In this document: piece by piece, positions 50,665 through 50,751 of the stretch
Position numbering within the stretch: the stretch's first letter is position 1
Layout of the letters: each line of letters starts with the position of its first letter
Assembly (NCBI GenBank): GCA_029959905.1
Contig: JASCNZ010000001.1
Span: 1 to 64,000, forward strand
Origin: Microbacteriaceae bacterium PS02344
Lineage (GTDB): Bacteria > Actinomycetota > Actinomycetes > Actinomycetales > Microbacteriaceae
Length of the DNA: 64,000 bases
Reading direction: 5' to 3'
The notes under the pieces: model-generated
Databases searched by the model: none
Told to the model about the DNA's origin: nothing
What the model saw: only the letters and a program-made list of their open reading frames with translations
Translations under genes and position numbers: made by a program

Positions 50665-50720
50665 GGGCCAACACAAGCGCCGCGACGAGGAAGGCCCTAG
50701 CTCTCAGGACTCGTCGCGGC
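50665..50720 (-). promoter_or_regulatory. leuA leader pseudoknot (LEU-element-like)
   Basis: On the minus strand GCCGCGACGAG (50710-50720) and CTCGTCGCGGC (50679-50689) form an 11-bp stem with a 20-base loop. The loop's GGGCC (50693-50697) can pair with downstream GGCCC (50665-50669), giving an H-type pseudoknot. The 5' arm lies inside the leader peptide ORF just after its Leu codons. A conserved pseudoknot upstream of actinobacterial leuA, called the LEU element, has been described by comparative analysis; assigning this one to it is by position and shape. Confidence 0.7.
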
Positions 50721-50751
50721 AGCTAAGAAGAAGCAGACCGCCGAAAGGCAT
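50704..50751 (-). CDS. leuA leader peptide with four consecutive leucines
   Basis: A short ORF encoding MPFGGLLLLSCRDES. The four Leu codons are CTG-CTT-CTT-CTT; CTT is rare in such GC-rich DNA. It ends inside the loop of the leader stem, about 70 bases before leuA. A TAGCAT box (50758-50763, minus) is six or seven bases upstream of the ATG, so it may be translated from a leaderless end. This is the layout expected for leucine-dependent ribosome stalling that controls leuA. Confidence 0.75.
   Translation of the reverse strand: MPFGGLLLLSCRDES

Follow-up and report, generated by a model that had tools for sequence, protein, structure and literature searches.

The LEU element upstream of leuA as a probable modular, codon-reading leader of actinobacterial leucine synthesis genes, with copies before leuC and leuB

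The window, that is, the whole 64-kb stretch of DNA that was analyzed, carries a leuA gene, identified by the NCBIfam models PRK03739 and TIGR00970, and a short leader directly upstream of it (Table 1). The original prediction described this leader as a 15-residue open reading frame with the codons CTG-CTT-CTT-CTT, followed by an 11-bp stem whose 5' arm lies inside the frame and whose loop, GGGCC, is complementary to a downstream GGCCC, the whole preceding leuA. All of these features were recovered. The frame reads ATG CCT TTC GGC GGT CTG CTT CTT CTT AGC TGC CGC GAC GAG TCC TGA, and the stem, referred to as P1, joins positions 50720-50710 to 50689-50679 (minus strand). Two features had gone unnoticed, namely, the pairing between the Leu codons and the Shine-Dalgarno (SD) tract of leuA and a TAGCAT hexamer 6 nt before the ATG of the peptide.

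Table 1. Positions of the leader parts and of the further elements (window coordinates unless a contig is named)
Feature	Position	Strand	Basis or remark
Putative -10 box TAGCAT (TGG before it)	50758..50763	-	6 nt 5' of leader ATG
Leader peptide ORF MPFGGLLLLSCRDES, 15 residues, stop included	50704..50751	-	Sequence and comparison
Four Leu codons CTG CTT CTT CTT (codons 6-9, sensor)	50725..50736	-	Also pair with leuA SD tract in the minimum-free-energy (MFE) fold
Stem P1, 5' arm GCCGCGACGAG, within ORF codons 11-14	50710..50720	-	Compensatory changes, inner 10 pairs
Stem P1, 3' arm CTCGTCGCGGC	50679..50689	-	Covariation; 3' arms also complementary to SD region
Pseudoknot helix, 5' strand GGGCC, in P1 loop	50693..50697	-	Complementary to GGCCC
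Pseudoknot helix, 3' strand GGCCC	50665..50669	-	31 nt 5' of leuA ATG
leuA SD tract GAAGAGAAGAAG	50641..50652	-	Mostly paired in ribosome-free fold
leuA, 2-isopropylmalate synthase, 584 aa	48879..50633	-	NCBIfam PRK03739, TIGR00970; presumed regulated gene
Second LEU element	G000:C62:91716-91804 (locus L233, about 1493-1598)	+	R1 55.9 bits; directly 5' of leuC
20 leuB elements	L299, L300, L301, L303, L306, L308-L310, L335, L340, L342, L344, L349, L354, L377, L387, L389, L397, L404, L419		

Runs of four Leu codons occur eight times in the window, counting both strands and any frame; a perfect 10-bp stem follows the one in the leuA leader alone, and one other run is followed by 9 of 10 pairs. 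Folding of the leader region was equaled by 1 of 200 dinucleotide shuffles (z, -3.0), and in the ribosome-free MFE fold the Leu codons are paired with the leuA SD tract. The TAGCAT hexamer (context TGGTAGCAT, on the minus strand) sits exactly six bases 5' of the peptide ATG, and the transcript that encodes the leader peptide is therefore probably leaderless. A consensus scan, which requires a -35 box as well, gave no sigma-70 type promoter at the leader, and no intrinsic terminator-like site with a U-tract was detected between positions 50560 and 50860. The leader had no match in Rfam release 15, either at the gathering score or at E values up to 1; the sole match in the window at the gathering score is a tRNA gene at 38507-38579 (minus strand; 66.3 bits).

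The element at leuA is a newly found case of the LEU element, described in 2005 by Seliverstov at leuA of most Actinobacteria as a peptide, a pseudoknot, a base stem formed by the Leu codons and the SD region, and an alternative hairpin (PMC1262725). The original prediction had recognized this kinship, and the peptide, pseudoknot and base stem features are all present here. However, it had also put forward the four-Leu peptide as an addition to the LEU element, and the 2005 paper already contains the Leu-run peptide. A small hairpin inside the P1 loop, a possible counterpart of the alternative hairpin of 2005, is present in our MFE fold. That work, whose genome list includes Leifsonia xyli, reported the element at leuA plus one transposase gene and favored a binding protein; its text does not mention leuB, leuC, leaderless transcripts or CUU. 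Changes of the Leu codons in the S. coelicolor leuA leader are described there in two wordings, as having an effect unlike classical attenuation and as having no influence. The mechanism was left open in 2005 because the codon changes of this one species misbehaved and no terminator was found. What differs here from the 2005 description is the presence of leuC and leuB copies, the exchanged rare sensor codons and the placed -10 box.

Related leaders have been described in other Actinobacteria. LeuL1 of Streptomyces lividans TK24 (MRFGLLLLSCRGEGL) has 15 residues, precedes leuA, is leaderless and, in the part of the paper available, is assigned no typical terminator and no pseudoknot (PMC8079986); despite their different sequences, LeuL1 and MPFGGLLLLSCRDES plainly belong to the same peptide family. 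Four consecutive Leu codons are found in the leuA leader of Corynebacterium glutamicum, as seen by RNA sequencing (PMC4046766, PMC3890552), and in that of C. diphtheriae, for which the available portion of the source assigns no start site (PMC5784534). Transcription attenuation is presumed for both species, and the likeness lies in the peptide. The leu attenuator of Escherichia coli and Salmonella likewise depends on rare codons for Leu in its leader peptide (CUA in the enteric case, CUU or CUC here), but it controls transcription through a terminator-antiterminator pair (PMC1183508), whereas no terminator-like site was found here. In the literature searched, beyond the reach of which lay most subscription papers, the element was not found reported for either leuB or leuC, and the leucine terms searched in PMC4833913 were absent. 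Relative to the papers searched, the leuC copies, the leuB copies with mixed Val, Ile and Leu codons, and the invariant CTT as last sensor codon are new.

The leader was compared among 231 regions upstream of leuA, a gene that 143 of 150 same-family genomes and 194 of 197 class genomes were found to contain. The regions comprised 142 family loci (genome G101, a weaker match, was excluded), 4 same-genus loci, 81 loci from class genomes outside the family, picked to cover a range of families, and 4 loci at second leuA copies; the outside-family loci and the second copies are referred to as the class set. The LeuA protein of the window shares 80% identity with its counterpart in Agromyces cerinus, 78% with that of an Aurantimicrobium MAG, and 72 to 74% with those of Cellulomonas, Isoptericola, Oerskovia and Cellulosimicrobium, which makes Microbacteriaceae the probable family. 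A short ORF with at least three consecutive Leu codons was present at 226 of the 231 loci, and the LEU element, scored as at least two of the four Leu codons plus a stem with at least 8 of 10 pairs, at 229, including all 146 family loci. The two loci without it are L045, which has just 124 nt of upstream sequence, and L171, a second leuA. With the search for the stem fixed at 5 nt past the last Leu codon, 10 of 10 pairs were present at 216 of the 229 loci and 9 of 10 at the remaining 13. The leader stop codon falls 3 to 9 nt past the P1 5' arm at 225 of the 229. TANNNT lies 5 to 8 nt 5' of an in-frame leader start codon at 203 loci (a count without shuffle control), with TG in the extended position at 147 of these, and it stands at exactly 6 nt from an ATG or GTG start at 146 of the 229. 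The best leuA match of every named-record genome carries the element (18/18), with peptides such as VLHGLLLLSCRSES in Agromyces cerinus and MRFGLLLLSCRGEGL in Streptomyces noursei. A second leuA-like gene (L304, genome G195) has the leader MLPRTTVLRRRGGA, in which the stem is kept and one Leu remains among the last four sensor codons.

Next, pairing was evaluated in two structure alignments, one of 110 nonredundant family leaders and one of 71 sequences, made up of the window and 70 members of the class set, among which are two second leuA copies. P1 cells are paired in 99.5% of cases in the family, with three pairs changed on both sides, and in 99.3% in the class set, with seven such pairs. 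The comparison across the family that the original prediction called for thus revealed compensatory changes in P1 along with conserved Leu codons. Substitutions in the codons for SCRDE, the peptide stretch encoded along P1, alter the amino acid (D/G, E/G) and preserve the pairing, which shows that it is the RNA pairing, rather than the peptide C terminus, that is under selection. The four basal P1 pairs (C-G, C-G, G-C, C-G) are invariant in the 110 family sequences, exceeding what pairing or codons need, which is possibly due to a bound factor; some second-leuA elements have a different base, with both sides substituted together (CCAC with GTGG). Inspection of the two alignments by eye revealed no long conserved unpaired stretch, of the kind expected in the ligand-binding core of a riboswitch, besides the Leu codons.

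The pseudoknot helix is paired in 80.5% of cells in the class set, compared to 28 to 73% when slid by 1 to 3 columns, and in 82.9% in the family, compared to 16 to 51%. Out of 500 shuffles of the class set, the pseudoknot was equaled or exceeded by 2 in cells paired, 0 in cells changed on both sides, 3 in covariation and 127 in pairs changed on both sides; the corresponding family values were 6, 55, 1 and 113. A blind scan for helices between loop and tail ranked the pseudoknot first in the class-set alignment; in the family alignment, other, weaker column runs outranked it, and the family columns were taken from the class alignment and the window, not from the rank in the family scan. Loops pair better with their own tail than with those of other species (33 of 20,000 permutations in the family and 2 of 20,000 in the class set reached the observed value, relatedness included); in the window itself, the cognate tail gives the loop no advantage over the average tail (-11.80 versus -11.88). 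Given the shuffle outcomes in both alignments, the comparison supports the pseudoknot helix, less firmly in the family.

The sensor codons are strongly constrained. Counting back from the last Leu codon (-1), Leu is encoded at positions -1, -2 and -3 in 146, 146 and 144 of the 146 family leaders; codon -1 is CTT in all of them, and CTC or CTT stands at -2 in 140 and at -3 in 135. CTT is also codon -1 in 71 of 83 leaders of the class set and in 20 of 21 leaders found before leuC (see below). Within coding sequences, by comparison, it accounts for 1.3% of 1,590 Leu codons of leuA (35 loci) and for 1 of 129 in four genes of the window. CTC and CTT are normally decoded by a single tRNA, tRNA-Leu(GAG). 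A choice of CTT for its pairing with the SD region was rejected, because recoded Leu codons pair equally well or better (family, -10.42 kcal/mol for the natural run versus -10.16 for recoded runs; class set, -9.97 versus -10.58). In the enteric leu attenuator, the control codon is the rare CUA, and its replacement by CUG lowered the sensitivity (PMC1183508).

Further elements were sought with a covariance model (R1) built from the class-set element, the window's own sequence included. In the window's genome it matched the leuA leader (56.3 bits) and a second site on contig 62, the next hit scoring 23.7 bits. The contig 62 copy has a -10-like TAACCT six bases 5' of an ATG, the peptide MRIVLLLSGRDETSF and a 10-bp stem, and leuC (TIGR00170) begins 41 nt past that stem. 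A possible GCCC/GGGC helix between loop and tail and a leuD-like ORF behind leuC were noted by eye. Divergent from this element lies a gene that, by eye, resembles a sulfhydrylase or cystathionine synthase.

Among 70 family genomes, 66 were matched by R1 (none of the hits was in G005, G012, G015 or G065). The 120 hits comprised 68 at leuA (66 first and 2 second copies), 46 within 450 nt of leuC, 3 at leuA-like genes (L314-L316) and 3 weak ones, and all 68 listed family leuA genes carry a hit. The leuC copy was present in 46 of the 66 sampled family genomes with a full leuC match (three weak matches excluded), with 46 of 56 at genome sizes of 2.2 Mb or more and 0 of 10 at smaller ones, a cut chosen after seeing the data. 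A class-wide leuC copy was rejected, since the 64 leuC loci of the class that were examined besides the window's have no R1 hit within 700 nt; for the same reason, the leuC copy looks like a gain within the window's family.

In the class, R1 matched 190 of 197 genomes. A sample of 69 class genomes, 64 of them matched, yielded 77 hits: at least 51 at leuA among the loci listed, 1 at the window's leuC, 16 that were inspected and 9 others. Eight of the inspected hits precede leuB and eight a leuA-like gene (one, L311, being a different LeuA type). Four of the eight leuB genes were named by NCBIfam PRK03437, and the eight are 71 to 80% identical to the first. Four further leuB copies came from 14 chosen genomes. 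Named records, of which 80 leuB loci were scanned, contributed eight more (five Nocardioides, two Aeromicrobium and one Propionibacteriales MAG) after one of nine hits, L384 (18.3 bits, other strand), had been dropped; because the training set of R1 consisted of leuA elements, the named-record count is a minimum. The 10-bp stem is present in all 20 leuB leaders. Their longest match between loop and tail is at least 8 bp in 15 and 6 to 7 bp in 5, compared to about 6 to 7 bp with shuffled tails, and own partners match better than those of others (0 of 5,000 permutations).

At the sensor position, the leuB leaders carry mixed Val, Ile and Leu codons, as in MRSVFVLIDRRGEA of Nocardioides pini and MRKQLVVIACRGRAS of Aeromicrobium sp. 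9AM. Two Leu/Val-rich leaders, MSRMLVVRRRSGV (L338) and VARRLVLVVPRRSGV (L348), precede a small gene that matches only the LeuA allosteric domain PF08502. In 22 leaders of the leuB type, these two included and several of them close relatives, the Val codon is mostly the rare GTA (22/34, versus 19/749 within leuB), Ile is ATT in 8 of 20 (versus 3/309), and Leu is CTT in 10 of 31 (versus 15/672). GTA, ATT and CTT are thus rare in leuB, if not always the rarest, GTT, CTA and ATA being rarer still. The N-terminal motif of LeuB lies 238 to 756 nt 3' of the stem; therefore, direct SD pairing is unlikely there, and the output at leuB probably differs from SD pairing.

To relate the leader to translation of leuA, complementarity to the SD region was scored. 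In the family (n = 110), pairing of the Leu run is stronger with the cognate SD region than with the SD regions of other species (0 of 20,000 permutations; for the window, -14.1 versus -9.9 kcal/mol on average), and the other segment pairs gave nothing in the family own-partner tests. Complementarity to the SD region exceeds that of shuffles for the Leu run in 83 and for the P1 3' arm in 82 of the 110 family leaders, compared to 57 and 49 for controls. The 3' arm also prefers its own SD region (2 of 5,000 permutations in the family; in the class set, matches in 43 of 70 leaders and 82 of 5,000 permutations), and P1 formation may therefore itself hold a second anti-SD segment away. Class-set own-partner tests cannot be trusted to be free of relatedness, because the intended control, the leader N terminus against the leuA coding sequence, was itself significant there (0 of 5,000; z, -4.5).

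SD accessibility was then computed with ViennaRNA, masking an assumed ribosome footprint of 18 nt before the A-site codon and 13 nt from its first base, with the pseudoknot outside the folding model. The mean unpaired fraction of the SD in the family (n = 110) is 0.24 for the free RNA, 0.52 with the ribosome at Leu codon -4 or -3, 0.48 at -2, 0.37 at -1 and 0.26 at the stop codon; with the ribosome at -3, access is higher than in the free RNA in 97 leaders and lower in 3. This order was the same under other footprints and fragment ends in the family. The gain amounts to 0.29 with the own SD region and 0.20 with regions swapped between species (own better in 76 of 110), so that two thirds of it persists with foreign SD regions. 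If only the last Leu codon is masked, access increases in 75 of 110 family leaders (0.24 to 0.38), a smaller effect, and outside the family there is none (up in 19 of 70). Outside the family, the SD-access effect as a whole is almost absent (0.34 to 0.38; up in 24 and down in 17 of 70). For the window's SD tract, access rises from 0.17 to 0.77 when the fragment includes 12 nt of leuA, to 0.73 with 40 nt and to 0.35 with 20 nt; with automatic choice of the SD it is unchanged. Among the 18 of 21 leuC elements that could be scored, access is up in 15 with 20 nt of leuC and in 13 with 40 nt, and down in none. The folding model thus supports release of the SD in the family and hardly elsewhere.

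These computations also bear on the proposal that a ribosome stalled on the Leu codons would block the stem. This holds for a stall at the last Leu codon or at the stop only; on the first Leu codons, the footprint ends 1 to 4 nt beyond the Leu run, before the stem. The stem-blocked state as the active one was rejected, since folding gives the best SD access with the stem free.

In our judgment, the leuA leader is best explained, with reasonable probability, as a translational attenuator of the LEU-element type that lies on a leaderless transcript and senses leucine. The computed support consists of conservation, stem covariation, codon bias, SD complementarity and, within the family, SD accessibility. 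We infer the transcript start, the stalling, the leucine response and the direction of control as follows. Transcription would start at the leader ATG, as the -10-like box suggests. When leucine is plentiful, the ribosome would pass the Leu codons, reach the stop just beyond the P1 5' arm and depart; the Leu run, together with the P1 3' arm while the stem is open, could then pair with the SD region and turn leuA off. When leucine is short, the ribosome would stall at the first Leu codons, covering the Leu run and leaving P1 free, so that stem and pseudoknot could form and retain the 3' arm, the SD would be freed, and leuA would be translated. In translational attenuation of the ermC type, a stalled leader ribosome likewise frees the SD, but the arrest depends on a drug and not on codon starvation.

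The output may instead lie in transcription, with a stalled or terminating leader ribosome deciding an early stop of RNA polymerase, intrinsic or Rho dependent, before the gene. This remains a serious rival, although we consider it clearly the less probable. Short RNAs of 85, 65 and 45 nt from the leuA leader of Mycobacterium tuberculosis are read as an attenuator in the source paper (PMC3526491), SD accessibility barely changes outside the family, and at leuB the distance between stem and N-terminal motif makes an SD output unlikely. Nevertheless, the interval 50560-50860 contains no terminator-like site, and a classical attenuator of the trp/leu type, with an intrinsic terminator and U-tract, was rejected on this ground; the S. 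lividans paper, as far as available, names no typical terminator at leuA (PMC8079986), and parts of an attenuator are described as missing in the 2005 paper (PMC1262725). The match of both the Leu run and the P1 3' arm to the SD region beyond shuffles also stands against a purely transcriptional output.

Both translational attenuation and the transcriptional alternative involve a leader ribosome, unlike the proposal of 2005, in which the pseudoknot is the site of a regulatory protein (the ML1624 family being the candidate) and the peptide is incidental. Its authors chose it as codon changes reportedly did not abolish regulation (PMC1262725), and the invariance of the four basal P1 pairs, beyond pairing needs, would suit it. 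However, the sensor codons stay Leu at leuA and leuC, become Val, Ile and Leu at leuB, and are taken from rare synonyms; a protein site needs no codons, and some second-leuA elements alter the stem base by paired substitution. Sensor codons that vary with the gene on a constant chassis would be of use to a ribosome and of none to a binding protein. The rare, exchangeable codons and the unchanged stem therefore argue for ribosome sensing, and we regard protein binding as improbable, more so than the transcriptional alternative; ribosome-mediated control, as originally suggested, is the best-supported reading. That ORF and stem coincide by chance, or that the stem is retained solely for encoding SCRDE, is hardly credible: the shortness of the ORF speaks for it and nothing else does, the element is conserved in 229 of 231 loci, and the alignments, in which substitutions in those codons retain pairing, are regarded as refuting it.

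Considering all copies, the LEU element is likely a modular, leaderless codon-reading device across the actinobacterial leucine pathway. One stem-pseudoknot chassis would serve leuA, second leuA copies, leuB, leuC and stand-alone LeuA allosteric-domain genes. Its sensor codons would be exchanged to fit each gene (Leu, or Val/Ile/Leu), rare synonyms (CTT, GTA, ATT) being used, and in the window's family it would have moved to leuC. Actinobacteria may thus govern several steps of leucine synthesis by one shared RNA control with exchangeable codons. The leuA leader itself is a member of a known element, and the main interest lies in the recoded copies: the natural recoding of the sensor from Leu to Val/Ile/Leu on the same chassis amounts to a comparative experiment separating ribosome sensing from protein binding.

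Some additional R1 hits were recorded. L347 (G236:C9:168938-169022; 41.8 bits, 10 of 10 stem pairs) precedes a regulator of the ROK family (PF00480), and its leader frame, ...RTSTCRDGA, is without branched-chain codons; it may be a decayed copy, another sensor or chance. L343, L345, L346 and L317 (30.8 to 38.3 bits) were dropped as chance palindromes by eye, and genome G016 has a hit of 33.5 bits. Across the phylum, 35 of 198 genomes match R1 at E values up to 0.01, and the hits above 37 bits outside the class are those of G519 (G519:C34:10775-10862, plus strand, 74.8 bits) and G440 (G440:C191:4076-4163, minus strand, 61.5 bits) only.
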